A stretch of 64,000 nucleotides of DNA from Rhodoferax sp. (lineage in GTDB: Bacteria > Pseudomonadota > Gammaproteobacteria > Burkholderiales > Burkholderiaceae_C), in assembly GCF_028688795.1 (NCBI RefSeq), contig NZ_JAQTXM010000029.1:1-64000 (forward strand), written 5' to 3'. The translations under genes and the position numbers were made by a program. This document shows positions 11,073 through 60,037 of the stretch, piece after piece. Under the pieces are notes generated by a model. The model had not been told where the DNA came from. It made no database searches and worked only from the letters and a program-made list of their open reading frames with translations. Position 1 is the first letter of the stretch, and every line of letters begins with the position of its first letter.

Positions 11073-11131
11073 AAAAAAGCCCGCTAATCCTTATGGGGCG
11101 GGCGTAAGTAGCTATGCTAAAAATAGCAAAT
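11073..11131 (-). terminator. Palindromic repeat copy acting as a terminator
   Basis: Read on the minus strand, the element gives GCTATTTTTAGCATAGCTAC, then TTACGCCCGC, then GCGGGC followed by six T. The GCCCGC/GCGGGC stem plus T run is an intrinsic terminator for the two-component genes upstream (minus direction). The left part matches the ATAGCTnCTTACGC arm of the family repeat found throughout the window, so the terminator seems to be built from a repeat copy. Confidence 0.65.
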
Positions 11132-11133
11132 AA

Positions 11134-11760
11134 TTAGACCTTGGCAGCATTTGGTCCGAGTGCGATTTTGAGCAGATCTGCCACCGTGTTGGCGCCCAGC
11201 TTTTCCATGATGTTGGCGCGGTGGGCCTCGACGGTTTTGATGCTGATGCCCAGGTCGTCGGCGATTTGCTTGTTCAGGCGACCAGCCACAATGCGTTCCA
11301 GCACCTGCGACTCCCGCAGTGTCAGGCGTGCCATCAAGGCATCGCGGTTGATGGCGCTCTGGTATCCGGCAAATGATTCTTTGGCCTGCTCCAGCATGCG
11401 CTCAACCAGAAGCAGCAGTTGCGGCTCGTCGAACGGCTTCTGGATGAAATCCATGGCACCTTTTTTCATGGTGTCAACGGCCATGGGCACATCGCCATGA
11501 CCCGTGATAAAGGCCAGCGGCAGGGGAGAGTTGCTTTCGATGAGCTTGTTTTGTAGCTCCAGGCCCGTCATGCCCGCCATGCGGATATCGACAACCAGAC
11601 AGGCCACCTCACGCGCGTCAAAGCGGCTTAAAAACGACTCAGCCGAATCAAAGCAGCGTACCCGGTAGTCTTTGCCTTCGAGCATCCATTGCAATGAGTC
11701 GCGTACTGCCTCATCATCGTCAACGACGTAAACCGTGCCTTTTTTGGGGATCAAACTCAT
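11134..11760 (-). CDS. FixJ/NarL-type response regulator
   Basis: A 208-aa regulator. The receiver domain (residues 8-120) has the acidic pair D14-D15, phospho-acceptor Asp58 (VVDIRMAGM), Thr86 and Lys108 (FIQKPF). The LuxR-type DNA-binding domain (about 145-205) shows LTLRESQVLERIVAGRLNKQ and the recognition-helix region ISIKTVEAHRANIMEKL. Its start overlaps the kinase stop by 4 nt, so the two form a coupled pair. The genes are divergent from aceE, which makes the pyruvate dehydrogenase operon a candidate target; this is inference only. Confidence 0.88.
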   Translation of the reverse strand: MSLIPKKGTVYVVDDDEAVRDSLQWMLEGKDYRVRCFDSAESFLSRFDAREVACLVVDIRMAGMTGLELQNKLIESNSPLPLAFITGHGDVPMAVDTMKKGAMDFIQKPFDEPQLLLLVERMLEQAKESFAGYQSAINRDALMARLTLRESQVLERIVAGRLNKQIADDLGISIKTVEAHRANIMEKLGANTVADLLKIALGPNAAKV

Positions 11761-14348: not shown

Positions 14349-14371
14349 ATTATGAAATCACTAGACGCCAT

Positions 14372-14398
14372 TTGAAATATATTAAAAATGGTTATAAA
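14372..14398 (+). promoter_or_regulatory. Possible aceE promoter in an AT-rich gap
   Basis: The 117-bp gap between the divergent kinase gene and aceE is markedly AT-rich. TTGAAA (14372-14377) and TATAAA (14393-14398) resemble -35 and -10 boxes, but the spacer is only 15 bp. A clear AGGAG ribosome site precedes aceE. The promoter assignment is tentative; no clean operator palindrome was recognised. Confidence 0.3.
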
Positions 14399-14465
14399 AT
14401 ATTTCAGCCAACAAATAGGCTAATTCATCTAATATTGACCCGCTTTACAACAACAGGAGACAGGC

Positions 14466-17186: not shown

Positions 17187-17295
17187 GCGGAATTCGGGAT
17201 TTACCTTTCAGCGAAGACTCATGTCGCGAATGCGATGTGAGGTCGACGCGTCAAGGTCGCTCCCACCCATGACTACTTAAAAAGCGAGACACAAC

Positions 17296-19044
17296 ATGGC
17301 AATTATTGAAATCAAAGTACCCGACATCGGCGACTTCGACGAAGTCGCGGTGATCGAACTGCTGGTCAAGCCCGGCGACACGGTCACGGCCGAGCAAAGC
17401 CTGCTCACCGTTGAATCCGACAAGGCCTCCATGGAAATCCCTTCCAGCCACGCTGGCGTGGTGAAGGAGCTCAAGGTGAAATTGGGCGACAAGGTCAGCG
17501 AAGGCTCTTTGGTGCTGCTGCTTGAAGTTGCTGGCGAGTCTTCTGCATCAAATCAGGCTGTAGCTCCCGTGGAACAAGCGCAAGCAGCTACGGTTTCTGT
17601 AGCCGCTTCAGTTGCGCCAGCGGCTTCCACATCAAATCAGCCCGTAGCCCTTGTAGAACCAACGCAAGCAGCTGCAACTTCAGTAGCAACTGGACCGGTG
17701 GAAGTGCGCGTGCCAGACATTGGTGACTTCAAGGACGTGACTGTCATTGAGGTCATGGTCAAGGCAGGCGACACCATCAAGCTGGAGCAAAGCCTGATCA
17801 CAGTCGAAAGTGACAAAGCTTCGATGGAAATCCCCTCCAGCGTTGCTGGCGTCATCAAAGAACTCAAGGTCAAGCTCGGTGACAAGGTCAACATTGGCGA
17901 TTTGCTGGCGATTCTGGAAGGCGTTGCTGTGGCTTCCGCCGTGGCACCTTCGGCACCTGCTGCTGCGCCAGCATCTGCATCAAATATGACTGTAGCCCAG
18001 GTAGAACAAGCGTCAACAGCTATTAATTCTGCAGCTTCAGTTGTAGCAGCAGCGGCCACCGTGGTCGCGCCAGCGCACAACCCCGGTGCGACCACGCTTG
18101 GCTTGCCTCACGCCAGTCCGTCCGTGCGCAAGTTCGCCCGCGAGTTGGGCGTGCCCTTGAACGAGGTCAAAGGCAGCGGCTTGAAAGGCCGCATCACCGA
18201 CCACGACGTGCAAGCCTTCACGCGCTCGGTGATGAGTGGTGCTGTTCAAACGGTAGCTGCTCAGGCAAGCGCCAAAGCTGTGCCAGCCACATCAAGCAAC
18301 GACGGCGCAGGCCTGGGCCTGATTCCGTGGCCAAAGGTTGACTTCACCAAGTTCGGCCCGATTGAGCGTAAGGAGATGAGCCGCATCAAAAAGATCAGTG
18401 GTGCCAACCTGTTGCGCAATGCCATCATGATTCCGGCCGTCACCAACCACGACGACTGCGACATCACCGATCTGGAAGCCTTCCGAGTCTCGACCAATAA
18501 GGAGAACGAGAAGTCGGGCGTGAAAGTCACCATGCTGGCGTTCTTGATCAAGGCATGTGTGTCTGCTCTGAAAAAATTCCCTGACTTCAACAGCTCGCTT
18601 GACGGTGATGCCATCATCTACAAGCAGTATTTCCACATCGGTTTTGCCGCCGACACACCCAATGGCTTGATGGTGCCTGTGATCAAAGATTGCGATAAAA
18701 AAGGCATCTACCAGATTTCGCAGGAAATGAGCGAACTGGCCAAAAAGGCCCGTGATGGCAAATTGAGCCCGGCAGAAATGTCTGGTGCATCGTTCACGAT
18801 CTCCAGCCTGGGCGGAATTGGCGGGCGCTATTTCACGCCCATCATCAACGCACCTGAGGTGGCCATTTTGGGCGTGTGCAAATCGACCATCCAGCCCGTT
18901 TGGGACGGCAAGGCCTTCCAGCCGCGCCTGATGTTGCCGCTTAGTTTGACCTGGGACCACCGCGTGATTGACGGCGCTGCTGCGGCTCGCTTCAACGTCT
19001 ACCTGGGCCAGATCCTGGGCGATTTCCGCCGGGTCTTGCTCTAA
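17296..19044 (+). CDS. aceF: Pyruvate dehydrogenase E2, dihydrolipoamide acetyltransferase (two lipoyl domains)
   Basis: A 582-aa E2. Lipoyl domain 1 (1-80) carries Lys43 and lipoyl domain 2 (134-212) carries Lys174, both in [10 protein letters not shown]. The E3/E1-binding domain is at about 272-307 (ASPSVRKFARELGVPLNEVK). The catalytic domain (about 345-582) ends with DHRVIDG, His555 and Asp559 being the active-site pair. Three inter-domain linkers, at residues 85-103, 113-132 and 229-247, are encoded by copies of the palindromic repeat and share the pattern SNQxVAxVExxQAA. The linkers are otherwise Ala/Pro-rich and presumably flexible swinging arms. Confidence 0.96.
   Translation: MAIIEIKVPDIGDFDEVAVIELLVKPGDTVTAEQSLLTVESDKASMEIPSSHAGVVKELKVKLGDKVSEGSLVLLLEVAGESSASNQAVAPVEQAQAATVSVAASVAPAASTSNQPVALVEPTQAAATSVATGPVEVRVPDIGDFKDVTVIEVMVKAGDTIKLEQSLITVESDKASMEIPSSVAGVIKELKVKLGDKVNIGDLLAILEGVAVASAVAPSAPAAAPASASNMTVAQVEQASTAINSAASVVAAAATVVAPAHNPGATTLGLPHASPSVRKFARELGVPLNEVKGSGLKGRITDHDVQAFTRSVMSGAVQTVAAQASAKAVPATSSNDGAGLGLIPWPKVDFTKFGPIERKEMSRIKKISGANLLRNAIMIPAVTNHDDCDITDLEAFRVSTNKENEKSGVKVTMLAFLIKACVSALKKFPDFNSSLDGDAIIYKQYFHIGFAADTPNGLMVPVIKDCDKKGIYQISQEMSELAKKARDGKLSPAEMSGASFTISSLGGIGGRYFTPIINAPEVAILGVCKSTIQPVWDGKAFQPRLMLPLSLTWDHRVIDGAAAARFNVYLGQILGDFRRVLL
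17550..17603 (-). repeat. Palindromic repeat, in-frame copy 1 in aceF
   Basis: On the plus strand it reads AAATCAGGCTGTAGC, then a central segment, then AACAAGCGCAAGCAGCTAC and GTAGC at the end. The reverse complement fits the family form GCTAC-n-GTAGCTGCTTGCGCTTGTT. It encodes the linker SNQAVAPVEQAQAATVSVA after lipoyl domain 1. Confidence 0.75.
17634..17690 (-). repeat. Palindromic repeat, in-frame copy 2 in aceF
   Basis: The plus strand reads AAATCAGCCCGTAGCCCTTG, then AACGCAAGCAGCTGC and AGTAGCAAC. The reverse complement begins GTTGCTACTGAAGTTGCAGC, the full left arm of the family. It encodes SNQPVALVEPTQAAATSVAT just before lipoyl domain 2, in the same reading frame as copy 1. Confidence 0.78.
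17982..18035 (-). repeat. Palindromic repeat, in-frame copy 3 in aceF
   Basis: The plus strand reads AAATATGACTGTAGCCCAGG, then AACAAGCGTCAACAGCTATT and GCAGC. It encodes SNMTVAQVEQASTAINSAA in the linker between lipoyl domain 2 and the subunit-binding domain, again in the same frame. Confidence 0.75.
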
Positions 19045-19068
19045 CCCGAACCGATAAGGAATAACAAC

Positions 19069-20895
19069 ATGGCACTTATCGACATCAAAGTCCCCGACAT
19101 TGGCGACTTCGCCGAGGTCACCGTGATCGAACTGCTGGTGAAACCCGGCGACACCGTAAAGGCTGAGCAAAGCCTGATCACTGTGGAGTCTGACAAGGCC
19201 TCCATGGAAATCCCTTGCAGCCACGCTGGCGTGGTCAAGGAACTCAAAGTGGCCTTGGGCGACAAAGTCTCTGAAGGCTCCTTGCTGCTGGTACTTGAAG
19301 CAGCGGGTGATTCTTCTATAGAAAATCAGCCTGTAGCAACCGTAGTTAATGCGCAAGCAGCTATTCAAAACGTAGCATCTCCAAGTTCAACGGCTGCCAA
19401 TTATTCCGGCACCTCCGATCTGGAGTGCGACTTGCTGGTGCTTGGCGCCGGGCCCGGTGGTTATTCGGCTGCTTTTCGCGCCGCCGACCTGGGTCTGAAA
19501 GTGATTTTGGTCGAGCGTTATGCCCAATTAGGCGGCGTCTGCCTGAATGTGGGTTGTATCCCCAGTAAGGCGCTGTTACATGTGGCGGCGGTGATTGACG
19601 AGGTTAGCCACCTGGCAGCCCTCGGTGTGGACTTTGGCAAGCCCGTGGTCAACATTGACACCTTGCGCGGACACAAGGACAAAGTTATTACCAAGCTTAC
19701 CGGCGGGCTGGCTGCGATGGCCAAGATGCGCAAAGTGACCATCGTGCGCGGCTACGGTGCCTTCGTTGGTGCCAACCATGTGACGGTCGAAGAGACCAGC
19801 GGCAGTAGCCAAGAGAAGACTGGCAAGACGCAAACCATTGCGTTCAAAAAAGCCATCATCGCTGCGGGCTCACAAGCTGTGCGCTTGCCGTTCATGCCGG
19901 ACGACCCGCGCGTGGTAGACAGCACCGGTGCCCTGGCTTTGAAAGAAGTGCCCAAGCGCATGCTGATTTTGGGCGGCGGCATCATCGGCCTGGAAATGGG
20001 CACGGTTTACAGCACGCTGGGCGCCCGCCTGGACGTGGTCGAAATGATGGACGGACTAATGCAAGGTGCTGACCGCGACCTGGTCAAAATCTGGCAAAAA
20101 ATGAACGCGCCTCGTTTTGACAACATCATGCTCAAGACCAAAACGGTGGGTGCCCGCGCATTGCCAGAAGGCATTGAGGTGACGTTTGCCGCAGCAGAGG
20201 AGGGTGGCACGGCGCCCGCACCACAGGTGTACGACCTGGTGCTGCAAGCGGTTGGCCGCACACCTAATGGCAAGAAAATCGCCGCCGACAAGGCCGGTGT
20301 GACCGTGACCGACCGAGGATTCATCAACGTCGACATCCAGATGCGTACCAACGTACCGCACATCTTTGCTATTGGCGACATCGTGGGCCAGCCTATGCTG
20401 GCACATAAGGCAGTGCATGAAGCGCATGTGGCCGCCGAAGTGATTGCCGGTGAACTGCAAGGCAACAAGGAGTTGGCGGCAGCCGCGTTCAACGCCCGCG
20501 TGATCCCAAGTGTCGCCTACACCGACCCTGAAGTGGCCTGGGTTGGCCTCACCGAAGACCAGGCCAAGGCGCAAGGTATCAAGGTCAAGAAGGGGTTGTT
20601 CCCTTGGAACGCATCAGGCCGCGCCATTGCCAATGGCCGCGACGAGGGTGTCACCAAACTGCTGTTTGACGATTCACCTGAGGCTCATGGCCACGGCAAG
20701 ATCCTCGGCGGCGGCATGGTCGGCACCCACGCGGGTGACATGATCGGAGAGGTGGCGCTGGCGATTGAGATGGGCGCGGACGCCATCGACATTGGCAAAA
20801 CCATTCACCCGCACCCCACGCTGGGCGAAAGCATCGGCATGGCGGCTGAAGTGGCACATGGTAGTTGCACGGATTTGCCGCCGGCGCGCAAGTAA
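19069..20895 (+). CDS. lpdA: Dihydrolipoamide dehydrogenase (E3) with N-terminal lipoyl domain
   Basis: A 608-aa E3 fused to its own lipoyl domain (1-80, Lys43 in [10 protein letters not shown]). The flavoprotein part starts near residue 119 with [17 protein letters not shown]. The redox pair Cys158/Cys163 is in [15 protein letters not shown], the NAD-binding motif is [14 protein letters not shown], and the C-terminal active-site His-Glu lies in [16 protein letters not shown]. It reoxidises the dihydrolipoyl groups of AceF. Lipoyl-E3 fusions are known in several betaproteobacteria. The lipoyl module and its repeat-derived linker are very similar to those of aceF, which suggests module duplication within the operon. 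Confidence 0.96.
19323..19376 (-). repeat. Palindromic repeat, in-frame copy in lpdA
   Basis: The plus strand reads AAATCAGCCTGTAGCAACCG, then GCGCAAGCAGCTATT and GTAGC. It encodes residues 85-103 ([19 protein letters not shown]), exactly the position of copy 1 in aceF relative to the lipoyl domain. It could have spread together with the lipoyl module rather than as a separate insertion. Confidence 0.75.
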
Positions 20896-20941: not shown

Positions 20942-20944
20942 ATT

Positions 20945-26730: not shown

Positions 26731-27392
26731 GCCAGCCAGCCTTTTTGCTTGACCGCTGCCAGCACATCCAGCCACACGGCGTCACGGCTTTGGTCTGCTG
26801 CAATGCGGGCGAAACGTTGCGGCTGGGCCTGAAATCGGGCTTGGTAGCCAGCGCGAACGCGGGCAAAAAACGTGACGGGCTGTGCTTCAAACTTATCGGG
26901 TATGCGGGCGCCGACCAATCGTTCCGCGGCAATCTCGGGGGCCAAATCGAACCACACCGTGAGTTCTGGTTGACGAATAAAATCACCATCTAGAGCTTTA
27001 ACAGTCTGCACAAGCAGCTCTAGAAAAGATAGCGTTTTCAGATCAAAGCCGCGCCCGCCACCCTGGTAGGCGAAGGTGGCGTCGGTGAAACGGTCGCACA
27101 GCACCACGTCACCCCGGCCCAAAGCGGGCTCAATCACTTGTTGCAGGTGGTCACGCCGCGCTGCGAACACCAGCAGCGCTTCTGTCATGGCGTCCATCGG
27201 GTCGTTGAGCACGAGGGCGCGCAGTTTTTCGGCCAGCGGGGTGCCGCCAGGCTCACGGGTTAGTGTTACCACCCTGCCCTGTGCCCTGAAGGCTTGCGCC
27301 AGGCCGTCGATGTGCGTGGACTTGCCGGCACCGTCGATGCCTTCAAAGCTGATGAAAATGCCGCTGCTGGTCATGGTTGGGTTTTGAGTCAC
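26727..27392 (-). CDS. tmk: Thymidylate kinase
   Basis: A 221-aa dTMP kinase. The P-loop is [11 protein letters not shown], the DR(Y/H) motif appears as [17 protein letters not shown], and the lid follows. Compared with E. coli Tmk it has roughly eight to ten extra residues after GRGFDLKTL. That segment, residues 120-138, is encoded by an in-frame palindromic repeat. The start is GTG 27392 (GTGA overlap with the mltG stop) or ATG 27374. Confidence 0.93.
26980..27033 (-). repeat. Palindromic repeat, in-frame copy in tmk
   Basis: The plus strand reads AAATCACCATCTAGAGC, then CACAAGCAGCTCTAG and GATAGC. It has the same 42-bp spacing between the AAATC end and the CAGCT box as the copies in aceF. 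It encodes residues 120-138 of thymidylate kinase in a variable surface region. Confidence 0.6.
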
Positions 27393-28372
27393 TGGCCGCG
27401 CTGGAATTTGTTGACCGCGCGATTGTGCGCGTCCAGGTTGTCGCTGAATTGGCTGCTGCCGTCGCCACGTGCCACAAAGTACAAGGAGCGGCTGACGGCC
27501 GGTTGGGCTGCGGCCATTAAAGATGCTTTGCCGGGCATGGCAATCGGTGTGGCTGGCAGGCCAGTCCGCGTGTAGGTGTTCCAGGGGGTGTCGGCGAGCA
27601 AATCGCGCCGACGCAGGTTGCCGTCAAACTGATCGCCCAAACCATAGATCACCGTGGGGTCGGTTTGCAGCATCATGCCAATGCGCAGGCGGTTGGTGAA
27701 CACCGAGGCAATCATCGGGCGGTCTGCGGCGCTGCCGGTTTCTTTTTCGACGATGCTCGCCAGCGTCAGCAAATCGTCCGGGGTTTTCAGTGGAGAGTCG
27801 GTTGCGCGCATGGCCCAGGCCGCAGCCAGGTGGTGGTCCATGGCACGCAGGGCGCGTTGTAGCACTTTCAAGTCGCTGCTGCCTTTGGCGTAGGTGTAGG
27901 TATCGGGGTAGAACCGCCCCTCAGGCGCAAGTGCTGGTCGGCCCAGTTTATTCATGATTAAATTAGGTTCTAGCCCTTTTGAATCTTGCGTAAGGTGCTC
28001 TGCTTTTAAGAGTGCTGCACGCACCTGCTTAAATGTCCAGCCTTCGACCAGCGTCACCGAACGCAAGGCTTCTTCCCCGCGTGTGAGTTTGGACAGCAAG
28101 CTGCGCGGTGTTAGCCCAGCTTCAAGCTCGTAGCTGCCGGCCTTGATCAAGCGGGCCTGGCCGGACAATCGAAACCACCAGTACAGCAGTGCGGGAGAGA
28201 CGTTCACCCCGCTTGCCACCGCATCCTGAACCACGCCACGCGGTGTGGTGCCGGGCTCAATGGACAAGTCCAGCGTGGGTGCGCTCAGGCTAAACGGCTT
28301 GTTCACCCACCAAAACGCCAAACTGCCAAAAGCCAGCGTCAATACAAATACAAAACCGATGAATCGACGCAC
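27389..28372 (-). CDS. mltG: Endolytic murein transglycosylase
   Basis: A 327-aa MltG (YceG). One N-terminal membrane helix (about 3-23) anchors it to the inner membrane. The YceG domain carries [24 protein letters not shown], the catalytic ASIVEKETG (Glu209) and PTVIYGLG. It cuts nascent glycan strands. Residues 120-138, between the WTFKQ and GRFYPDT blocks, are encoded by a repeat copy. It is the first gene of a six-gene operon and divergent from ygfZ across 32 bp. Confidence 0.93.
27960..28015 (-). repeat. Palindromic repeat, in-frame copy in mltG
   Basis: The plus strand reads AAATTAGGTTCTAGCCCTTT, then TTGCGTAAGGTGCTC and AGTGC. The spacing matches the aceF copies, though the sequence is more diverged. 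It encodes [18 protein letters not shown], a loop between two conserved MltG blocks. Confidence 0.5.
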
Positions 28373-28404: not shown

Positions 28405-29349
28405 ATGATAATTCACGCCATGCACACCACACTCGAAGGCGTAGCCCCGCTGACACATTCAGGGCTAATCAGGGCACAAGGCGACGACGCCGCCAAATTT
28501 TTGCACGGTCAATTAACAAGTGACTTCTCGCTTCTGGGGCTTTCCGAGGCCCGGTTGGCTGGTTTTTGCAATGCCAAAGGTCGTTTGCAAGCCAGTTTTA
28601 TTGGCTTCAAGCGCAGCCAAACTGACATTTTGCTCATTTGCAGCCCAGACATTCTGGTAAACACCCTGAAACGTTTGAGCATGTTTGTGATGCGCGCCAA
28701 GGTCAAGCTGACTGACGCCAGCGCTGATTTTTCGGTGTATGGGCTGGCTGGTTCAGCCGCCGTGACTGCTTCACAAAAGATAACGGCTTACGCTGGTGGT
28801 GCTTGGGCTAAAGCTGATTTTGATGAGGCATCTTTGGTAACACTTTACCCCGTCGACGGTGTGCCACGGGCTTTATGGATTACCCCGGCTGGAATGCAGG
28901 CACCCGCTGGCGCACCCATGACGGCCGAACAATGGGCCTGGGGTGACGTGCGCAGTGGCATAGCCACTGTGACGCAACCCATTTTTGAGGCGTTTGTGCC
29001 TCAAATGCTCAATTACGAATCCGTTGGCGGCGTTAATTTTAAAAAAGGCTGCTACCCCGGACAGGAGGTGGTGGCCCGCAGTCAGTTCAGGGGCACTTTG
29101 AAACGTCGTGCCTATTTGGCCTATTCTGAATCGGCTCTGCAAGCAGGCGACGAGTTGTTTGCCCCGGACGATGCCAGCCAGCCCTGCGGCCTGGTGGCAC
29201 AAGTGGCCCAAGCGCCGAACGGTGGTTTTGACGCAATTGTGTCAATGCAGATTACGGCATTTGGAGCCGGGGGGGTGCGTGCGCAGGCAGCTGATGGCCC
29301 TGTGCTGGTTTTGTCGCCTCCGCCCTACCCGTTGCTCGCGGATATCTGA
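28405..29349 (+). CDS. ygfZ: Folate-binding iron-sulfur cluster repair protein YgfZ
   Basis: A 314-aa YgfZ/GcvT-like protein. The family signature K-G-C-Y-x-G-Q-E is present as KKGCYPGQEVVAR, with the redox-important Cys. It uses tetrahydrofolate and helps keep certain Fe-S enzymes such as MiaB active. Start ATG 28405; ATG 28420 is an alternative. Residues 121-140 overlap a repeat-like sequence in the variable middle. Confidence 0.9.
   Translation: MIIHAMHTTLEGVAPLTHSGLIRAQGDDAAKFLHGQLTSDFSLLGLSEARLAGFCNAKGRLQASFIGFKRSQTDILLICSPDILVNTLKRLSMFVMRAKVKLTDASADFSVYGLAGSAAVTASQKITAYAGGAWAKADFDEASLVTLYPVDGVPRALWITPAGMQAPAGAPMTAEQWAWGDVRSGIATVTQPIFEAFVPQMLNYESVGGVNFKKGCYPGQEVVARSQFRGTLKRRAYLAYSESALQAGDELFAPDDASQPCGLVAQVAQAPNGGFDAIVSMQITAFGAGGVRAQAADGPVLVLSPPPYPLLADI
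28766..28822 (+). repeat. Diverged palindromic repeat, in-frame copy in ygfZ
   Basis: It reads CTGCTTCACAAAAGATAACG then GCTTACGC, and ends GGGCTAAAGCTGATTTT. It fits the left arm and the GGGCTAnAG-CTGATTT right arm of the family, with one base missing. It encodes about residues 121-140 of YgfZ. Confidence 0.5.
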
Positions 29350-40161: not shown

Positions 40162-42879
40162 ATGAGTGAAGCACCCCTGTTACAAAGCCAGAATCAGAGC
40201 CGTCCAACCCCGTCAGTTGACACCCTGGCGCTGCATTGCCACGCAGCCCCCGGGCACTTTGATGAGCTCTCGGGCAAGGCAACGTTGGCAAACTCCCGTC
40301 AGGCTGAACCAGCTACTGATTCAGTAGCTTCTAGTGACGTATTGACAAGATCTTGGGCAGACTTTTTCTCGGAACTGTCAGTTGATAGCGCGGATGACAT
40401 GGACCAGCGCGCCGCCAGTCTGGCACGTCAGATACGCGACAACGGCATCACCTACAACGTTTATGCTGATGAAAACGGACCGCAACGCCCGTGGTCGCTG
40501 GACGTTTTTCCGTTGCTGGTTGACGCAGCCAACTGGCGCCACATTGAAACCGGCGTACTGCAGCGGGTGCGGCTGCTGGAGCACATCATGGCCGATGTGT
40601 ATGGGCCGCAAGCGCTGTTGCGCCAGGGCTTTTTGCCCCCTGCGCTGGTGCATGGCCACCCCGGCTACCTGCGTGCCATGCACGGCGTCAAGCCCGTGGG
40701 TGGGCGTTACCTGCACATTGCGGCGTTTGATTTGGCACGCGGGCCGGATGGCAACTGGTGGGTGGTGGGGCAGCGCACCCAGGCCCCATCCGGCTTGGGC
40801 TACCTGCTGGAAAACCGCCTGGCCATCTCGGCCCAGTTTCCGCAAGCCTTTGGCAAGCTGCGGGTACAGCGGCTGGCAGGTACCTACCGCGCCCTGATGG
40901 ACAGCTTGCGCAGCATGAGCCCACTGGGGCAAGACGCCCACCTGGCACTGCTGACCCCCGGTCCCTACAACGAAACTTATTTTGAACACGCCTACCTGGC
41001 GCGCTACCTGGGCCTCACACTGGTAGAAGGCGGCGACCTGCTGGTGCGCGACGAGCATCTGTTCTTGAAAACCCTCAAAGGCTTGGTGCCAGTGCATGGC
41101 CTCTTGAAACGAGTGGACGACGAGTATCTGGACCCGCTCGAATTGCGCGCAGACTCCACATTGGGCGTACCCGGGCTGCTGCAAGCCATTCGGGCCGGCA
41201 ACGTGCTGGTGGCCAATGCCCCAGGCACTGCATTCTTGGAGTCCCCCGCCCTGCTGGGTTTTTTGCCGGCACTGTCGCGCCATGTGTTTGGCGAAAAATT
41301 GACCTTGCCGGCCTTGGCCACGTGGTGGTGCGGTGAGCGCGGTGCCATGCAAGAAGCGCTGGAAAATTTGAAGAGCTGCGCCATCAAACCGACCTACCCC
41401 GGTTCGCCAAGCCACGGTAGTTTTGACTCGGTGCTGGGCGTTCAGCAAGACCAGCCCGCCCTGGACGAGTGGGTGGGGCGCATCATGCGCCAGCCCGAAG
41501 AACACACGGTGCAGGCCTACACGCCGCTGTCTCAAATGCCTGCCTGGCAATCGGCCAGCAAGAGTAATGCAGACGATGTGCCGGGCAGCCAGCTGAGGGC
41601 GCGCTCCGTAACGCTGCGGGTGTTTGCCGTGTCTGATGGTGCACAAGGCTGGCGTGTGCTCCCTGGTGGCCTGGCGCGAGTGGCCAGCCGCGGGCAAGAG
41701 ATCACCGCCATGCAGCGTGGCGGCAGCAGCGCCGATGTCTGGGCCCTGACTCAGGGCGAGGTAGACGCCAGCACGTTACTTGCTCCGCACCTGACCCCCG
41801 AGAGTCTGATGCAACGCAAGCGCCTTGTGACCAGCCGCGCCGCGGAAAACCTGTTTTGGCTGGGGCGATACACCGAGCGCGCAGAAAATGCCATTCGACT
41901 CGCAAGGCTGACCCTGGAATGCCTGCACGGTGAAGAGCAATCCAGCCCGGCGCTGATCACCTGGCTGGGCCAGATGGCGCTGACCAACACGCTGGTGTTG
42001 CCCGGTGTGCCCACGCCGGCGCAGGCGGTGCGGGTATTTGAGCGCTCCTTGATTGACAGCCTGGGCAGCACGGCAGGTGCTACCAGCGTGGGTTTTTACC
42101 TGCGCGCCCTCAAAATGGCGGCCTCGACCGTGCGCGAACGCTTATCCCAGGAACATTGGCGCATCATCACCCGAGCCGAAGAAGACCTGTTCAGCCGTTT
42201 TGCCGAAGCACGCCAAAGGAGTGATTTCTCGACCCTGCATGCGCTGCAAATTCTGAAGGACACCAGCGACCACATGGCCGCCATCACCGGCGCGCAAACC
42301 GACCGCATGACGCGGGACGACGGCTGGCGCCTGCTCAGCATTGGCAGGCACGTGGAACGTCTGGCGTTTCTGGCCGGGGCCTTGAGTAGCGCACTGGCCT
42401 GCGGCAGCCTGAACACCGACAGCGGCTTTGACGCCATGGTCGAGCTGTTTGACAGCGCCATCACCTTCCACGCCCAGTTCCAGCAAAGTCGCGACATGGC
42501 GGCACTGATTGACCTGTTGGTGCTTGACCGTGACAACCCGCGCTCGGTTGCTTGGGTAGCCCACACGCTGCGGGGCCGCTTAGCCAAACTGGCTGGCAGC
42601 GAACCGCATGAATTGAGCGCCATGGCCCTGAAAGTACCTAATCCGAACGTGTGGAGCTTGACGCAGCTGTCCGGCTTGCATGTCGATCTGGCCAGCCCGG
42701 CCTTCGATCAAACCCTTGACGCGCTTCAACCCGCTGATGCACTAGCTATCGCGCGCTTTGAACTTCTCAACCGGGTCTTACAGCAATGCAGGCAGGCGGC
42801 GTTTAACGTCTCAGATGACATCAGCGCCACCTATTTCACGCACAGCGGCCTGGCCAATCGCAGCGTGGGGGCGCTATGA
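40162..42879 (+). CDS. Circularly permuted ATP-grasp and alpha-E fusion protein
   Basis: A 905-aa fusion. After a variable N terminus, a type-2 circularly permuted ATP-grasp domain (about 75-560) shows RVRLLEHIMADVYGPQALLR, YLENRLAIS, LTPGPYNETYFEHAYLARYL and VEGGDLLVRD. The alpha-E domain (about 555-895) begins VTSRAAENLFWLGRYTERAE and is all-helical. These two are often separate adjacent genes; here they are one. ATP-grasp ligases join a carboxylate to an amine, so a peptide or amide product is expected. It overlaps the transglutaminase gene by 4 nt. A repeat copy encodes part of the variable N terminus. Confidence 0.9.
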   Translation: MSEAPLLQSQNQSRPTPSVDTLALHCHAAPGHFDELSGKATLANSRQAEPATDSVASSDVLTRSWADFFSELSVDSADDMDQRAASLARQIRDNGITYNVYADENGPQRPWSLDVFPLLVDAANWRHIETGVLQRVRLLEHIMADVYGPQALLRQGFLPPALVHGHPGYLRAMHGVKPVGGRYLHIAAFDLARGPDGNWWVVGQRTQAPSGLGYLLENRLAISAQFPQAFGKLRVQRLAGTYRALMDSLRSMSPLGQDAHLALLTPGPYNETYFEHAYLARYLGLTLVEGGDLLVRDEHLFLKTLKGLVPVHGLLKRVDDEYLDPLELRADSTLGVPGLLQAIRAGNVLVANAPGTAFLESPALLGFLPALSRHVFGEKLTLPALATWWCGERGAMQEALENLKSCAIKPTYPGSPSHGSFDSVLGVQQDQPALDEWVGRIMRQPEEHTVQAYTPLSQMPAWQSASKSNADDVPGSQLRARSVTLRVFAVSDGAQGWRVLPGGLARVASRGQEITAMQRGGSSADVWALTQGEVDASTLLAPHLTPESLMQRKRLVTSRAAENLFWLGRYTERAENAIRLARLTLECLHGEEQSSPALITWLGQMALTNTLVLPGVPTPAQAVRVFERSLIDSLGSTAGATSVGFYLRALKMAASTVRERLSQEHWRIITRAEEDLFSRFAEARQRSDFSTLHALQILKDTSDHMAAITGAQTDRMTRDDGWRLLSIGRHVERLAFLAGALSSALACGSLNTDSGFDAMVELFDSAITFHAQFQQSRDMAALIDLLVLDRDNPRSVAWVAHTLRGRLAKLAGSEPHELSAMALKVPNPNVWSLTQLSGLHVDLASPAFDQTLDALQPADALAIARFELLNRVLQQCRQAAFNVSDDISATYFTHSGLANRSVGAL
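40311..40367 (+). repeat. Palindromic repeat, in-frame copy in the ATP-grasp gene
   Basis: It reads AGCTACTGATTCAGTAGC then TTCTAGTGACG, and ends TTGGGCAGACTTTTT. It fits the GCTAT-n-ATAGCTnCTnACG left arm well and the right arm loosely. It encodes ATDSVASSDVLTRSWADF in the variable N terminus of the protein. Confidence 0.55.
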
Positions 42880-43937: not shown

Positions 43938-43954
43938 AATACAGCGGCTTAATG

Positions 43955-44007
43955 TTGCAAATTTAATAGCTACCAATGCATATAAATAAAGGGCTAGCGC
44001 CCATTTC
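43955..44007 (+). repeat. Palindromic repeat, intergenic copy before ridA
   Basis: It reads TTGCAAATTTAATAGCTACC, then AATGC, and ends AAAGGGCTAGCGCCCATTT. The right arm GGGC-TA-GCGCCC forms a short hairpin followed by T-rich sequence. It could end the transglutaminase transcript and lies 27 bp before the next start codon. Confidence 0.75.
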
Positions 44008-44034
44008 TTCATATATTTTTTGAAAGACATCGTC

Positions 44035-48613: not shown

Positions 48614-49279
48614 TTAGAAAAGCTCGAGTATGCGCCAGCCACGTGCCAGAGCCACCTCGCGCAACCCCGCATCAGGGTTGGTGGCCACCGGGTAGTTGAC
48701 CCTTTGAAGCAGGGGCAAATCATTGCTTGAGTCGCTGTAAAAAGTGCTTTCGACATCGCCCCAGGTCATATGACGGGCATGCAGCCATTGCTCAACCCGT
48801 GCCACCTTTCCTTCACGAAATGACGGCGTGCCATCGATTTCCCCGGTGAACCAGCCGCTTGCCGAGTCACGCTCCAGCTTGATGGCAAGCAGCTCATGCA
48901 CACCAAATGCATGGGCAATGGGTGCGGTGACGAATTCGTTGGTGGCTGTGATGATCACCACCACATCCCCCGCCGCCTGGTGCTGCTGCACCAGTGCCAA
49001 AGCCTGAGGCTTCATGGCTTTTTTAACCACAGCCCTCATGAAATCTGCGTGAGCAGCTTCTGAATTTATAGCACCCTGACGGCGCATTGCGGCGGTGGCG
49101 AAGCGGATATATTCGTGAATATCGAGCGTGCCGGCTTTGTATTGTTCGTAAAACACCTCGTTGCGTTGAGTAAATTCTGCCGCGTCGTTCCAGCCCAGTG
49201 CGGTGGTGAAGACACCCCACTCGTAGTCCGAGTCCATGGGAATCAAGGTGTGATCCAGGTCAAAGAGCGCCAGTTTCAT
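48614..49279 (-). CDS. HAD-IB family phosphatase
   Basis: A 221-aa HAD hydrolase with motif I ALFDLDHTLIPMDSD, motif II VVIITATN, a motif III Lys region and motif IV YSDSSNDLPLL. It resembles the phosphoserine phosphatase-like (HAD-IB) proteins found beside hda in Burkholderiales; the substrate is unknown. The start lies 2 nt after the hda stop. Residues about 69-84 overlap a repeat-like sequence. Confidence 0.87.
   Translation of the reverse strand: MKLALFDLDHTLIPMDSDYEWGVFTTALGWNDAAEFTQRNEVFYEQYKAGTLDIHEYIRFATAAMRRQGAINSEAAHADFMRAVVKKAMKPQALALVQQHQAAGDVVVIITATNEFVTAPIAHAFGVHELLAIKLERDSASGWFTGEIDGTPSFREGKVARVEQWLHARHMTWGDVESTFYSDSSNDLPLLQRVNYPVATNPDAGLREVALARGWRILELF
49026..49073 (-). repeat. 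Repeat-like sequence within the HAD phosphatase gene
   Basis: On the minus strand it reads GTGCTATAAATTCAGAAGC, then TGCTCACGC, then ATGAGGGCTGTGGT. It resembles both arms of the palindromic family. The encoded residues include AHADFMR, which looks like family sequence, so chance or an old domesticated copy are both possible. Confidence 0.35.
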
Positions 49280-51077: not shown

Positions 51078-51257
51078 CGAAATGGCGAAAAGCCGGGCCC
51101 TTAAAACAAAAGTTCAGCGCAGACCCACTTAAGCAAGTGGCGTCGCAACTAAAATCTGGCCAAATTCTATCGGGCTTGACCGCAGCAGCTTTCTTTTTGG
51201 CAGTTTTGCGGACCCACAGGCCAAGCCCACACCCTTTTCCCCTCATCGACCCAAGCC

Positions 51258-52310: not shown

Positions 52311-52382
52311 CCATCATGGGCCGCTTGGGGCGGGCTTTAGTTTGCTTTGGTTGATTCAAGTCGACCAAAGCATGGCGCCAAA

Positions 52383-52439
52383 TTTGCTATCTATTAAATA
52401 GCTGCTTACGCTTATTATATAAGGGCTAGAGCCCGATTT
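52383..52439 (+). repeat. Palindromic repeat, intergenic copy after purM
   Basis: This is the clearest copy. It reads TTGCTATCTATTAAATAGC, then TGCTTACGC, and ends TAAGGGCTAGAGCCCGATTT. The right arm GGGCT-AGAG-CCC is a small hairpin with trailing T. It lies 12 bp before the next start codon and is effectively the leader of the MFS gene. Confidence 0.85.
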
Positions 52440-52451
52440 ATCATATAAATC

Positions 52452-54445: not shown

Positions 54446-55006
54446 ATGAAAACATGTCTTATTTTGATTGATGCACAGGAGTCATTCCGCCAGCGTCCGT
54501 ATTTCACCGACACTGACCTGCCCGCCTATCTGGTCGCACAAAACGCCCTGATTGACGGTTGCGTGGCCCAGGGCGTGCCGATTGTTCGGGTTTTTCACGT
54601 CGACGGCCCAAAAGTGGTCAGCAACCCGTTTTCTATCGAATCCGGCTTTGTGCAGCCGCTGGCCGAGTTACACGCTTTTGAAGCCTCAGCCACATTTATC
54701 AAGGGGCGCCACAGTGCACTGGTAGGCACCGGGCTGGAGGTGTGGCTGACACAACTAGGCATCCAGAGGCTGATCGTCAGCGGTATTCGCACCGAGCAAT
54801 GCTGCGAAACCACCACGCGCCACGCCTCTGACTTGGGCTGGTCGGTGGACTACTGCCTGGATGCCACGCTGACCTGGGACATGCAGCATCTGGACGGCTC
54901 TACGCTGAGTGCCGCCGACATCAAAGCCCGCACCGCGGCCGTGCTGAAAGATCGCTTTGCCACGGTTTGCAGCGCTGCTCAGGCGCTGGAGCGGACAGCA
55001 GGTTGA
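54446..55006 (+). CDS. Isochorismatase-family cysteine hydrolase
   Basis: A 186-aa alpha/beta hydrolase with the catalytic triad Asp9 (LILIDAQES), Lys86 (FIKGRHSAL) and Cys119 (GIRTEQCCET). It may hydrolyse a C-N bond, as nicotinamidases and ureidoacrylate hydrolases do. Only 10 nt separate it from a GlxA-type regulator, which suggests that the regulator controls it or shares its substrate. Confidence 0.87.
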   Translation: MKTCLILIDAQESFRQRPYFTDTDLPAYLVAQNALIDGCVAQGVPIVRVFHVDGPKVVSNPFSIESGFVQPLAELHAFEASATFIKGRHSALVGTGLEVWLTQLGIQRLIVSGIRTEQCCETTTRHASDLGWSVDYCLDATLTWDMQHLDGSTLSAADIKARTAAVLKDRFATVCSAAQALERTAG

Positions 55007-55016
55007 CAGGCAATTT

Positions 55017-56012
55017 ATGACCAGACAGACAGCGGCCATTACACCGATCCAGGTGCTGTTCGCCCTGCTGCCCGACAGCTTGGCGCTGGATTGGGCTGGG
55101 CCGGCTGAGGCCTTGCGCATCGCCAACCAGGCGTTGCTGGCACAGGGCCAGCCCGAGCGCTTTGTGCTGCGGTTTGTTGGGCCAGTCAGTGAAGCAGTCA
55201 GTTCGGTCGGCCTCAGACTGGCTGGTCTTGAGGCGCTGCCTGACAAGCTGACCGAGCCAACCTGGGTGGTGCTGGTGGGTCAGCCGGGTGCCACGATTCC
55301 GGTGCAATCCGAGGCGACCCAGGGGCTGCTGCACTGGCTGCGTGGCCTGCGGCTGCAAACCCATAAACTGGAGCTGATGACGGTGTGTGCGGGCGCTTTA
55401 TTGGCAGCGCACGCGGGCTTGCTGGCGGGCCACCACGTGACCACGCACCACCACCATCTGGCTGAATTGCAGACGGTGGAGCCTGCGTGTCATGTGGTTG
55501 AAAACCGGGTGTTTGTGGAAGACGCGCCGGTGTACAGCAGCGCAGGCGTGACCACTGGCGTGGATTTGACACTGCACCGCATGGCACAAATCTGTGGCGA
55601 GCCCATCACCGCGCTGGTGGCACAAACCATGGTGGTGGCCATGCGTCGCGGCCCAAACGACCCGGAGCTGTCACCGTTTTTGGCCTACCGCAACCACCTG
55701 CACCCTGCCCTGCATCGCGTGCAGGATGCCATCAGCAGCCAGCCCGCTGCCGAGTGGCATTTGGCCAGCATGGCAGCCGTGGCCTGCACGTCGCCCCGAC
55801 ACCTGACGCGGCTGTTCATGGCGCACGCCGACATTGCGCCGCTGCAGTACCTGCGTCGCATCCGGCTGGCGGTGGCACAAACGGCGCTGCAGTCTGGCCG
55901 CAATGTGACGCAAGCCGCGGCGCTTGCCGGGTTCAGTTCCGATACTCAATTGCGCCGGGCCTGGCATCAGTTGGGTGAAACGGGAACACCGTCGAACCCA
56001 AATTCACTATAG
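55017..56012 (+). CDS. GlxA-type AraC-family regulator (DJ-1/PfpI-like domain plus HTH)
   Basis: A 331-aa regulator. The N-terminal DJ-1/PfpI-like domain (about 8-195) contains VCAGALLAAHAGLLAGHHVT. The C-terminal AraC domain (about 220-320) contains MAAVACTSPRHLTRLFMAH and ALAGFSSDTQLRRAWHQL, its two HTH motifs. ATG 55017 is chosen because the longer frame overlaps the isochorismatase gene. It probably regulates its neighbour; the effector is unknown. Confidence 0.87.
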   Translation: MTRQTAAITPIQVLFALLPDSLALDWAGPAEALRIANQALLAQGQPERFVLRFVGPVSEAVSSVGLRLAGLEALPDKLTEPTWVVLVGQPGATIPVQSEATQGLLHWLRGLRLQTHKLELMTVCAGALLAAHAGLLAGHHVTTHHHHLAELQTVEPACHVVENRVFVEDAPVYSSAGVTTGVDLTLHRMAQICGEPITALVAQTMVVAMRRGPNDPELSPFLAYRNHLHPALHRVQDAISSQPAAEWHLASMAAVACTSPRHLTRLFMAHADIAPLQYLRRIRLAVAQTALQSGRNVTQAAALAGFSSDTQLRRAWHQLGETGTPSNPNSL

Positions 56013-56072
56013 TTATAGTAGCTGTTTATGCATGTTTTATAAGCACTAGAAGGCTAAAAGGCTTATAAATTT
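56004..56072 (+). repeat. Palindromic repeat, intergenic copy after the GlxA-type gene
   Basis: It reads CACTATAGTTATAGTAGC, then TGTTTATGC, and continues TAAGCACTAGAAGGC with AAAAGGCTTATAAATTT. It overlaps the last codons of the regulator. The AAGC..GCTT and GCCTT/AAGGC segments can fold, so it may act as a terminator between convergent genes. Confidence 0.65.
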
Positions 56073-56125
56073 CAAGCAACGACTGGCGCAAGGTGCGGAA
56101 GGCTTCAGCCCGCCAGTGCATCGGC

Positions 56126-57079: not shown

Positions 57080-57471
57080 CGAACCGATCGTGTGAACGGA
57101 AACACCTTGGTCAGGCCCATGATGTCTGTCACCAGCAAAACTATGAACACGGTAAACAGAATGCCCAGCACGTCGCCACCGGCCGGGGCCTGATCAATCC
57201 GACCCGCCAGTTGGGCCACTTCAGCATCGGACATGGCGGCCACACGTTCCATGGCGGCTTGTGCGGTCACGCCTTGGCCGAGCATGGCTTGGCGAACCTC
57301 GGCACGGGCGAAAAACTGGTTCACCGTGTCACGGCTGGCACTTTGGCTGGTTGCCGCAGGCGCGGTGATTTCTTCGGTGGCGACGATGCGAGCCTGCGCA
57401 CTGAACGGCAAGCCTGCTGCGGTGATGCAAACGATCAGGCCAGTGGAGATGATTTTTTTGATGCTGTTCAT
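57076..57471 (-). CDS. PA2779-family small exported membrane protein
   Basis: A 131-aa protein with a signal peptide (IISTGLIVCITAAGLPFSAQA), an Ala/Gln-rich middle with the helical stretch TAQAAMERVAAMSDAEVAQL, and a C-terminal membrane helix (DVLGILFTVFIVLLVTDIMG). PA2779 proteins always accompany PA2778-type peptidases and may be their substrate or anchor. ATG 57471 is preferred over the upstream reading. Confidence 0.8.
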   Translation of the reverse strand: MNSIKKIISTGLIVCITAAGLPFSAQARIVATEEITAPAATSQSASRDTVNQFFARAEVRQAMLGQGVTAQAAMERVAAMSDAEVAQLAGRIDQAPAGGDVLGILFTVFIVLLVTDIMGLTKVFPFTRSVR

Positions 57472-57565
57472 GGGTACTCTTTTGGGTTGTGGCAAAAACC
57501 CCCTGATTCAATCGACATCAGCCGCAAAAGTCAAAGCCACTTACACCTTGACACATCAAAAGTCG

Positions 57566-58435
57566 TCAGCTGATGGCGCGGCGCAACTCTGCCACGCGCT
57601 GGGCAATCGCGGCACGGTCGGTATAGAGATTGGTACTGTTACCGTGCATGGTGTTGGCCAAGTAGGTTTCCAGGTCTTCCAGGGCATGGCCGCTGCGGCC
57701 GGCCTCGGCGTGGGCCAGGCCGCGGTCTCGGTACTCAGTCCAGGCTTGAGGTAGCAGCACGATGAGACGGTCAAGTACCGCAATCAGGCGCGACCAGTCT
57801 TCTTGTCCGGCGTGGATTTCTTTCAGGTTGTGCAGCATGCGGGCAATGATGTCGCGCGGGAGCGCCGCCTGCAGGTACAAGCCCAGCGGCACCTCTTGCT
57901 CGTCCACCAAGCCGTTCATCTGGCGATATGGCTCTAGCCGCTCCGCCAATTCTTCGCGGCTGAGTGACTGGCCCGTAAGCGGGTCAATCACCACCTGCCC
58001 TTCAGATAAATTGACCTTGACCAGGAAATGCCCCGGAAACGCAACGCCACGTGCTTTCAGACCAATACCCTGCGCTAATTCCAGCCAGAGCACCGCCAAC
58101 GAGATCGGTATGGCCAGACGAGTGCGCAGCACCACGTGCACAAAGCTGTTGTCCGGGTCCATGAAATTGTTGAAATTGCCCGCAAAGTTGAGATCGCGGT
58201 AGACAAACTGGTTGAGCGTGCGCAAGCGTTGCAAGGGCCCAGCATCAACCGGCAGACGACGCGTCAAGCGGGCCAGCAACTGGTCCACATCGCCCAACAC
58301 CTGCTGCACGCTGAGGTCAGGGTATTCGTCTTGCGCCAGGCTGATGGCAGCTTCAAGCAGCGGAAAATCCGCGTCGGCATGCACCAGAGCAGAAAAATAC
58401 TCTAGCGGTGTGGGCACGTTCAGACTGAGGTTCAT
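57566..58435 (-). CDS. SirB1-family protein (transglutaminase-like core 2 plus TPR)
   Basis: A 289-aa protein. The SirB1 domain contains FVYRDLNFAGNFNNFMDPDN, RTRLAIPISLAVLWLELA and RGVAFPGHFLVKV. A Cys nucleophile is not obvious, so it is likely non-catalytic. The C-terminal TPR-like part has DRGLAHAEAGRSGHALEDLE. SirB1/YchA proteins are widespread; their role is unknown. It lies 36 nt from murJ on the same strand. Confidence 0.85.
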   Translation of the reverse strand: MNLSLNVPTPLEYFSALVHADADFPLLEAAISLAQDEYPDLSVQQVLGDVDQLLARLTRRLPVDAGPLQRLRTLNQFVYRDLNFAGNFNNFMDPDNSFVHVVLRTRLAIPISLAVLWLELAQGIGLKARGVAFPGHFLVKVNLSEGQVVIDPLTGQSLSREELAERLEPYRQMNGLVDEQEVPLGLYLQAALPRDIIARMLHNLKEIHAGQEDWSRLIAVLDRLIVLLPQAWTEYRDRGLAHAEAGRSGHALEDLETYLANTMHGNSTNLYTDRAAIAQRVAELRRAIS

Positions 58436-58471
58436 GGGCGTGATTGTCTATCAGTGCAGGACATTAAGGGT

Positions 58472-60037
58472 TTACCGCCGTACCAATTGACGCAGTTTCA
58501 TGCCAGCCGCCCACAACGCTATAAAATAAATAGCTACTGACGCAATTAATACAAGGGCTACAAGCCAAATTCTCTTAAATCCTTGGGCGCGCAAGGCAAT
58601 CCAGTCGACGCTGCCGTTGGCCCACATCAAGAACACCGCCAGCAGCGCGCAGGCGGCCAGCACCTGCAGCGTGAATGCACCCCACCCCACCGAAGGCTTG
58701 TAGCTACCGCGTTTAAGCAAGCCCAAAAGCAGCCACAACGCATTCACCATGGCACCGATGCCGATCGACAGCGTCAGCGCCGCATGGGCAAAAATGGGCA
58801 CCAGAAAATAGTTCAATATCTGCGTGATGATCAGCACCGCCACCGCCACCTTGACTGGTGTTTTGGTGTCCTGGTTGGCGTAATAGCCGGGGGCCAGCAC
58901 TTTCAGGGCCACCAGCCCGATCAAGCCCACGCCCCAGCCCATCAGTGCATGGGTAACCTGGCGCACATCGAAGTCAGTCATGGCGCCGTAGTGGTAAAGC
59001 ACTGCCACCAACGGGGTCGGAAACACCAAGAGCGCCACGGCGCACGGCACTGACAACACCACCACCAAGCGCAAGCCCCAGTCGAGCATGGCCGAGTATT
59101 TTGCGGCGTCATTGCTGGCGCGCGCACCGGCCAGTTGCGGCATCAGCACCACGCCCAAGGCCACCCCCAGCATGGCGGTGGGAAATTCCATGAGCCGGTC
59201 GGCATAGGTGATCCAGCTGACGCTTCCCGGGGCCAAATGCGAGGCAATTTGCGTGTTGATCAGCATCGAAATATGTGCCACGCTGACCCCTAGCAGGGCC
59301 GGGCCCATCAGGCGCAGGATGTTTTTGGTGCCCGTATCGCCCCAAGCCATCCGCAGAGCCGACCAGCGCCATCCCAGTCTTGGGTGCAAATTGAGACGCC
59401 TCAAAGCCAGCCATTGCACTGCCAGCTGAAGCACGCCACCCAGCAGCACGCCACCGGCTAGCGCATAAATTGGCTCCAGCCCCAACGTTTTGAACCAAGG
59501 CGCACCCAGCCAGGCCGCGCCAATCATGCAAATATTGAGCAACACCGGTGTCGCCGCAGGCACGGCAAAGCGCTTCCAGGTATTGAGCACCCCAGCGCCC
59601 AAAGCGACCAGCGACATAAAGGCAATGTAGGGAAACATCCAGCGCGTCATGACCACCGCCACCTGGTAGCCGCGAGGCTCTTGCTGCAAACCGCTGGCCA
59701 TGGCCCACACCAAGCCACCCGCACCCAGCACGCCCAGCACGCTCAACACCAGCAGAGCCCACGCCAGCACCGTGGCCACGTGGTCAATCAGTCGCCGGGT
59801 GACTTCCTCGCCGTGCTGGGCTTTGCTGGCAGCCAGCACCGGTATGAAGGCTTGACTGAAGGCACCTTCACCAAAAAGACGACGGAACAGGTTGGGAATG
59901 CGAAATGCCACATTGAACGCATCGGTCATGGCGGATGCGCCAAAGGTCGACGCAATCAACAGCTCGCGCACCAGCCCAGTGATGCGTGACAGCAGTGTCA
60001 ATAACGAGACGATAGAAGCGGATTTGAAGAGACTCAC
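58472..60037 (-). CDS. murJ: Lipid II flippase MurJ
   Basis: A 521-aa membrane protein with about 14 helices. Family blocks include SITGLVRE-type SRITGLVRELLIASTFGASA, AFRIPNLFRRLFGEGAFSQAF and the tail helices. It flips lipid II across the inner membrane for peptidoglycan synthesis. Residues 489-507 (IWLVALVLIASVAIYFIAL), predicted to be the last membrane helix, are encoded by a palindromic repeat copy. Confidence 0.95.
   Translation of the reverse strand: MSLFKSASIVSLLTLLSRITGLVRELLIASTFGASAMTDAFNVAFRIPNLFRRLFGEGAFSQAFIPVLAASKAQHGEEVTRRLIDHVATVLAWALLVLSVLGVLGAGGLVWAMASGLQQEPRGYQVAVVMTRWMFPYIAFMSLVALGAGVLNTWKRFAVPAATPVLLNICMIGAAWLGAPWFKTLGLEPIYALAGGVLLGGVLQLAVQWLALRRLNLHPRLGWRWSALRMAWGDTGTKNILRLMGPALLGVSVAHISMLINTQIASHLAPGSVSWITYADRLMEFPTAMLGVALGVVLMPQLAGARASNDAAKYSAMLDWGLRLVVVLSVPCAVALLVFPTPLVAVLYHYGAMTDFDVRQVTHALMGWGVGLIGLVALKVLAPGYYANQDTKTPVKVAVAVLIITQILNYFLVPIFAHAALTLSIGIGAMVNALWLLLGLLKRGSYKPSVGWGAFTLQVLAACALLAVFLMWANGSVDWIALRAQGFKRIWLVALVLIASVAIYFIALWAAGMKLRQLVRR
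58517..58571 (+). repeat. Palindromic repeat, in-frame copy in murJ
   Basis: The plus strand reads CGCTATAAAATAAATAGC, then TACTGACGC, and ends AAGGGCTACAAGCCAAATT. It is a near-consensus copy, entirely within the coding sequence on the opposite strand. It encodes most of the C-terminal hydrophobic helix of MurJ. Confidence 0.85.

Follow-up and report, generated by a model that had tools for sequence, protein, structure and literature searches.

The window analysed here, a stretch of 64,000 nucleotides from Rhodoferax sp. (contig NZ_JAQTXM010000029.1), belongs to a genome in which a repeated motif of about 65–70 bp occurs at high density. The repeat family is real. It is abundant, has grown in place at the sites tested, is constrained as DNA, shows no replication polarity, keeps within the limits of one bacterial family, the Comamonadaceae, and occurs there in dialects. 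The motif is composed of blocks at fixed spacing: GCTAT, ATAGCTnCTnRCGC, AAGGGCTAgAGGCC, AWWW and TTATAAA. We regard it, with somewhat better than even confidence, as a duplex recognition motif that grows in place and is spread by a molecular drive similar to that of DNA uptake.

Copies were located with a gapless 70-nt profile, which was seeded with 43 exact matches to RTAGCTNCTNRCGC from the window and 387 kb more of the same genome and then refined. The search covered these 451 kb, from which the training set also stems; copies straddling the ends of the searched stretches escaped it. The profile returned 80 matches of at least 14 bits, 78 of them of at least 25 bits, against none in either control, a single second-order Markov sequence of equal size and the reversed sequence. 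Such a scan against a composition control was the test named in an earlier note on this DNA (hereafter the original prediction), whose claim of an abundant and unusually dense family, present on both strands and in genes as well as gaps, is borne out. Background windows taken from one stretch of the genome have a mean score of −104 ± 20 bits, and matches at 29–91 bits stand far above this level. The information content of the motif is about 63 bits. Extrapolated from the 80 matches per 451 kb, the genome would contain about 880 copies. The 4.99-Mb genome contains 299 occurrences of a strict 14-nt core versus two of the reversed pattern; allowing up to two mismatches gives 29 occurrences in the window, where 15.6 are expected, and this number was reached in none of 100 shuffles.

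The proposed scan of other Comamonadaceae also found the motif. We used sequences of four congeners (designated G121, G346, G284 and G214; the genome of the window is G000) that had not entered the training and were picked for synteny with G000. At a cut-off of 20 bits the profile gives 17 matches in 53.5 kb of G121, another 17 in 50.8 kb of G346, 7 in 46.7 kb of G284 and none within a 39-kb syntenic stretch of G214.

The original prediction took the copies for inserted palindromic elements of the Rickettsia type and suggested a comparison of orthologous genes with and without them. This comparison does not support insertion at the sites tested. Within 1.15 Mb of G214, 14 of the 34 gene copies have a spanning orthologue of at least 45% identity. 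The net length difference is zero residues in 7 of the 14 (murJ, purK, ybbN-like, mltG, histidinol-phosphatase, tmk and one E2 linker), one residue in another, and 4, 11, 13, 17, −10 and −38 residues in the others. In a second set from other genomes, which comprises 18 of 62 coding candidates and partly consists of orthologues of the sites just described, the gap is zero in 8 copies, one residue in 2 and 3 to 21 residues in the rest. At the DNA level, outgroups were aligned for murJ alone, and for six other proteins PDB sequences served as the comparison. The murJ copy is spanned by 26 of 29 orthologues from other families, 17 of which align without a gap and 9 with 1–4 gapped residues. The 17 ungapped outgroups score −46 to −108 bits at the copy and so do not have the motif (the nine gapped ones were not scored). 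In the genus, the same site scores 77 bits in G000, 62 in G121, 54 in G346, 42 in G284 and −2 in G214. Because the outgroups align without an element-length gap and those scored lack the motif, the murJ site has grown in place. The copy still encodes residues that many outgroups have there (R, YF, AL), which suggests gradual substitution. The purK copy (67 bits) aligns without a gap to G214 and to the three PDB homologues nearest to it, and differs by one residue from the fourth. No clean insertion of element length (about 70 nt) was seen in the gene copies tested against G214, PDB sequences or the murJ outgroups. Growth in place by point substitution is well supported at the sites tested. Five ungapped G214 sites (seven gapped ones were left out) score −21 bits versus −91 at shifted controls, an excess that is predicted by homology alone and is therefore no sign of motif loss as opposed to never having had the motif.

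The motif behaves as a duplex sequence rather than as a hairpin. Among 383 distinct copies, the arms of both putative hairpins pair at, or nearly at, the level expected under independence, and the strongest dependences link adjacent columns, above all AAA or TTT at positions 39–41. An inserted palindrome was considered and rejected in view of the outgroup alignment together with the weak or absent covariation of the arms. Conservation was assessed in alignments with up to 10 gap positions within the copy; the copies of G000 were selected by score and their orthologues were not. Against G121, gene copies have identities of 0.81 at high-information positions, 0.76 in the flanks and 0.67 at low-information positions, and for copies outside genes these values are 0.85, 0.79 and 0.69. 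Against G214, the values for genes are 0.63, 0.70 and 0.63. At fourfold-degenerate sites pooled over G121, G346 and G284, 75 of 108 high-information positions are identical versus 1470 of 2733 in the flanks (p = 0.0015); against G214 the numbers are 13 of 31 versus 410 of 892. It is well supported that motif positions are conserved as DNA in the motif-bearing congeners and not in the motif-poor G214.

Genes were called with a simple codon-usage script, not with a standard caller, which gave 374 genes and a coding share of 89.4% in the 451 kb. Only 34 of the 78 copies lie inside called genes, the other 44 being situated in gaps or overlapping the end of a gene; therefore gaps are strongly preferred and genes are under-used. 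The original prediction placed most copies in coding sequence, which is correct for the window, where 9 of its 13 sites lie in open reading frames (ORFs), and does not extend to the 451 kb. It also considered the coding share unusual; in the 451 kb the gene share is lower than the coding fraction. Gap types were compared for the 41 non-gene copies that have two called neighbours: 15 lie in convergent gaps (2.8 per kb), 23 in tandem gaps (0.87 per kb) and 3 in divergent gaps (0.29 per kb). Gene 3' ends are favoured: 26 of these 41 copies have a stop codon within 25 nt. Copies inside genes are compatible with the frame, as had been stated: one reading frame is used by 24 of the 34, 13 on the strand opposite to the gene and 11 on the same strand. 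As the preferred frame is about equally common on both strands, the signal is blind to the direction of transcription. The median score is 55 bits for gene copies and 74 bits for the others, as expected if proteins limit the copies.

Both strands of the chromosome are used alike. In two one-contig genomes, copies on the two strands are interleaved (100 of 108 and 50 of 87 places listed). Replication-strand polarity similar to that of FtsK-orienting polar sequences (KOPS) or Chi was considered and rejected: the first places in several one-contig genomes are all on the plus strand, which we take for an effect of listing, and the fuller listings are those of the two genomes with interleaved strands.

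At least 30 core matches were counted by hand in 62 of 399 genomes of the family, with a maximum of 538, and within the genus of the window the core counts are 299, 296, 20, 4 and 0. By a hand count of core matches, ten genera contain genomes with at least 30 as well as genomes with fewer than 20. Environmental isolates with the motif include Rhodoferax antarcticus ANT.BR and Simplicispira psychrophila DSM 11588. G214 is motif-poor by profile also, with 3 matches of at least 25 bits in 1.15 Mb. Among the 80 records listed of at least 113, the genera are Rhodoferax, Polaromonas, Simplicispira, Giesbergeria, Curvibacter, Acidovorax, Diaphorobacter, Hylemonella and Comamonas, together with metagenome-assembled genomes labelled only as Comamonadaceae, Burkholderiales, beta proteobacterium or Pseudomonadota. 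A longer and stricter pattern, which occurs 114 times in this genome, was present in two of five genomes of the family and in none of 195 genomes from the order's other families. Lineages differ in the commonest base at core position 9, with T in this genome as well as in G121 and a Polaromonas, C in G217, A in Giesbergeria and Simplicispira, and no majority base in Rhodoferax antarcticus; these dialects come from small samples of 6–78 copies per lineage. Three Comamonadaceae plasmid stretches of 50 kb each (150 kb) have no copies, where about 26 would be expected if the hosts had the density of this genome. One IMG/VR contig has the exact long pattern (L304:3271-3340, 53.8 bits), and a phage search gave two low-scoring matches at chance level.

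Genome-wide over-representation, origin by point mutation, related dialects and under-representation in coding sequence, by which uptake sequences are recognised, are all found here. Because these features match those listed for uptake sequences, we propose molecular drive by biased uptake and recombination. Direct comparison at a limited number of sites suggests that the motif arises at existing sites via point substitutions and some small indels and is then held. A competence receptor would prefer motif-bearing DNA, and incoming fragments would recombine with the chromosome, so that motif-improving variants would spread. Sites would build up wherever proteins and promoters tolerate the motif, and in lineages that lose or change the specificity they would degenerate or move towards a dialect. 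What we infer is thus a bias in uptake, a receptor for the motif and transformation as the driver. Whether the Comamonadaceae independently evolved a DNA-uptake self-recognition with a far longer signal (about 65–70 bp), lineage dialects and losses within genera is, in our estimation, evenly balanced.

A range of observations weighs against uptake as the driver. In length, the motif exceeds known uptake signals several-fold. ComEC (PF03772), the only competence gene searched, is present in 381 of 399 genomes of the family, the motif-poor G214 included. A survey of pilins gave no type that tracks motif number cleanly and no clear receptor: pilins of the GspH/FimT type are present in all 33 genomes searched, and a PilE-FimT gene pair (PilE E <1e-49) in 2 of 16 genomes with at least 30 core matches (G349 and G361) and in 6 of 13 with fewer, the genomes being classed by core count only. 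In the 451 kb only 3 matches fall between 8 and 25 bits, and so few half-grown sites are scarce for a drive with fast turnover. Genes with atypical codon usage show no depletion; 23 and 24 copies lie near the genes of the two lowest quintiles, versus 17, 17 and 19 near those of the rest. Exact-core counts understate diverged motifs, and patchiness is overstated by the exact core, because G346 is core-poor (20 matches genome-wide) but profile-rich (17 matches in 50.8 kb). Two plasmid copies exist (R751 and pI2), and each of the genome's two PF01797 (Y1 transposase) ORFs carries a copy at its 3' end (L144:1037-1106 and L145:2149-2218; 28 and 59 bits). The first stem, of 5 bp, is fully paired in 28 of 78 copies versus 22.5 ± 2.9 after shuffling of columns, with 17 of 500 shuffles reaching 28. 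This excess is slight at most, and the palindromic nature originally ascribed to the repeat is accordingly weak. Some length differences belong here as well. In comparison with PDB sequences, they amount to about 1, 2 and 21 residues for the three putA copies, 8 for tmk, about 9 for a garR-like protein and 4 for the ybbN-like protein and for earP (a Polaromonas copy); loops and linkers elsewhere differ by −38 to 13 residues. The copy nearest to an insertion is that of putA, with 17 (versus G214) to 21 extra residues.

The main rival explanation is that the copies are binding sites for a chromosome-organising or nucleoid protein, each selected for its function, with no drive by uptake. Selected binding sites agree with a duplex motif, growth in place, strand neutrality and site positions common to congeners, and the copies are more evenly spaced than random on one 200-kb stretch (coefficient of variation 0.70, p = 0.017), although not on a 167-kb contig (p = 0.30) or in the window (p = 0.67). 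However, the contrast between 78 matches of at least 25 bits in 451 kb here and 3 in 1.15 Mb of the congener G214 is hard to square with an essential role, and about 63 bits far exceeds the information needed to locate a site in 5 Mb. We therefore consider this explanation unlikely. Still less probable is an old mobile element, now decayed, of the type of Rickettsia palindromic elements (RPE), miniature inverted-repeat transposable elements (MITE) or repetitive extragenic palindromic (REP) sequences, which would have been inserted in the ancestor of the family. The frame-compatible linker copies, the extra residues at the putA copy and the copies behind both PF01797 ORFs would agree with it. 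But a copy within 20 nt of the stop codon is found in 34 of 374 genes anyway, murJ and purK show no insertion versus outgroups, stem covariation is little or none, and near-identical pairs are absent among the 3003 pairs of copies, the most alike being identical at 56 of 70 positions.

We give very little credence to an element acting at the RNA level, such as a terminator, attenuator or processing site. The enrichment behind genes and in convergent gaps would suit it, and one copy overlaps a terminator-like repeat; against it are the near equality of the two strands in the preferred frame and the little or no compensatory pairing. The window has no Rfam match at the gathering score, and a permissive search of 221 bases gave one match at chance level. 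Equally improbable is another kind of biased conversion (RNA- or retroelement-templated, or gene conversion driven by a nuclease) in which short stretches of resident sequence would be overwritten. It would be expected to yield ungapped replacement and high information, but the outgroup residues kept in the murJ copy suggest gradual substitution instead. Uptake-like drive thus remains the explanation that we prefer.

In the window, the profile recovered all 13 sites of the original prediction, 11 of them at 44–90 bits and two at 16.8 bits, and added two that had been overlooked. The copy at 11062..11131 (minus strand, 46 bits) lies between two minus-strand ORFs and overlaps a GC-rich inverted repeat with an A/T run; G214 has the same repeat without the motif. 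Three minus-strand copies belong to the dihydrolipoyl acetyltransferase gene (TIGR01348): 17538..17607 (53 bits) in a lipoyl linker, 17622..17691 (55 bits) in a linker and 17970..18039 (55 bits) in the second linker. The linker of a lipoyl-domain dihydrolipoyl dehydrogenase has another at 19311..19380 (minus strand, 60 bits). A 300-nt segment occurs three times (63–83% alike) at 17291-19363 across these two adjoining dehydrogenase-complex genes, whose linkers hold the copies. Further minus-strand copies lie in the dTMP kinase gene tmk at 26968..27037 (44 bits; net gap 0 versus G214, and 8 residues longer than two PDB homologues) and in mltG at 27948..28017 (54 bits; net gap 0 versus G214). The two weak copies (17 bits) are on the plus strand: 28764..28833 in a ygfZ-like gene, where the orthologous site of G121 scores 51 bits, and 40308..40377 near the start of a 905-aa ORF that has no NCBIfam match at E 1e-10. 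Also on the plus strand are 43950..44019 (59 bits; intergenic), 52382..52451 (90 bits, the highest score in the window; intergenic), 56002..56071 (69 bits; overlapping the 3' end of a gene) and 58514..58583 (77 bits; near the C-terminal end of murJ). The two added copies are on the minus strand, at 49007..49076 in the histidinol-phosphatase gene (41 bits; net gap 0 versus G214) and at 63017..63086 within ORF 62456-63385 (34 bits).

Several observations concern competence genes, mobile DNA and pairs of copies. Motif-poor genomes account for most occurrences of a pair of PilE-like and FimT-like genes (L374, L357, L379, L352, L359, L373 and L350), the exceptions being G349 and G361; the neighbouring ORFs in L350 are pilY1-like and ribD-like. 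The best PilE-like match of the window's own genome (G000:C56:260245-260697) contains one internal stop codon. ComEC was dropped as a discriminating marker, being nearly universal whatever the motif number. In G217 (C1:310372-310410), two cores face each other 11 nt apart, an arrangement resembling the inverted pairs with which known uptake sequences form terminators. The Comamonas testosteroni IncP plasmid pI2 has a 64-bit copy between two catabolic genes (L306:1499-1568). On plasmid R751, the DUF1010 gene next to dfrB3 within a class 1 integron contains a 54.5-bit copy (L305:1187-1256). A low-stringency plasmid search matched 1797 records; in 26 of the 30 listed, DUF1010 lies under the match, and only R751 was scored. 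One study proposes a Comamonadaceae origin of dfrB genes (PMC11662351), with which the R751 copy fits.

In the literature searched, no such repeat family is named; motif strings gave nothing relevant, and a search for uptake sequences in Comamonadaceae gave none. A 2020 paper names two families with strong uptake-sequence preferences (PMC7811141). These two known families leave the question of selection for kin DNA versus passive molecular drive. If our explanation is true, the Comamonadaceae would be a further family with uptake sequences and with a far longer signal, and a family with motif-rich and motif-poor members in one genus would offer a new test case by direct comparison of congeners. 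The motif may also be used as a family fingerprint on mobile genes, as one integron cassette carries a copy. If the driver is not uptake, an unexplained chromosomal motif of 63 bits that grows inside conserved genes would be at least as surprising.

Among known repeats, RPE are inserted sequences with copies in protein-coding genes that keep the frame and occur in both orientations. Copies in genes, the kept frame and both orientations are common to RPE and the motif described here. In contrast to RPE, no clean indel of element length is seen at the gene copies tested here, and hairpin pairing is near the level of independence. REP sequences and bacterial interspersed mosaic elements (BIME), associated with REP-associated tyrosine transposases (RAYT), are abundant, extragenic and often located behind genes, and have two hairpin-like halves. 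The motif resembles them in abundance, in its frequent position behind genes, in its two hairpin-like halves and perhaps in the 3'-end copies of two Y1-transposase ORFs, and differs in that 34 of 78 copies lie inside genes, covariation is little or none and no insertion is seen at murJ and purK.

The DNA uptake sequences (DUS) of the Neisseriaceae, of about 10–12 bp, have a known receptor, ComP, whereas the motif here measures about 65–70 bp with no receptor identified, and here a single genus includes both motif-rich and motif-poor species. Both systems have lineage dialects and some family genomes without an obvious repeat (DUS: PMC3630211). The uptake signal sequence (USS) of the Pasteurellaceae is unrelated in sequence and has a core of 9–11 bp with AT-rich flanks versus about 65–70 bp here. 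According to the 2020 paper, uptake signals evolve by point mutation, are not inserted elements and are scarce in coding and acquired DNA (PMC7811141). The likeness of USS to the Comamonadaceae motif includes very many copies, an origin by point mutation, rarity in coding sequence, lineage variants and a core with AT-rich flanks (PMC7811141).

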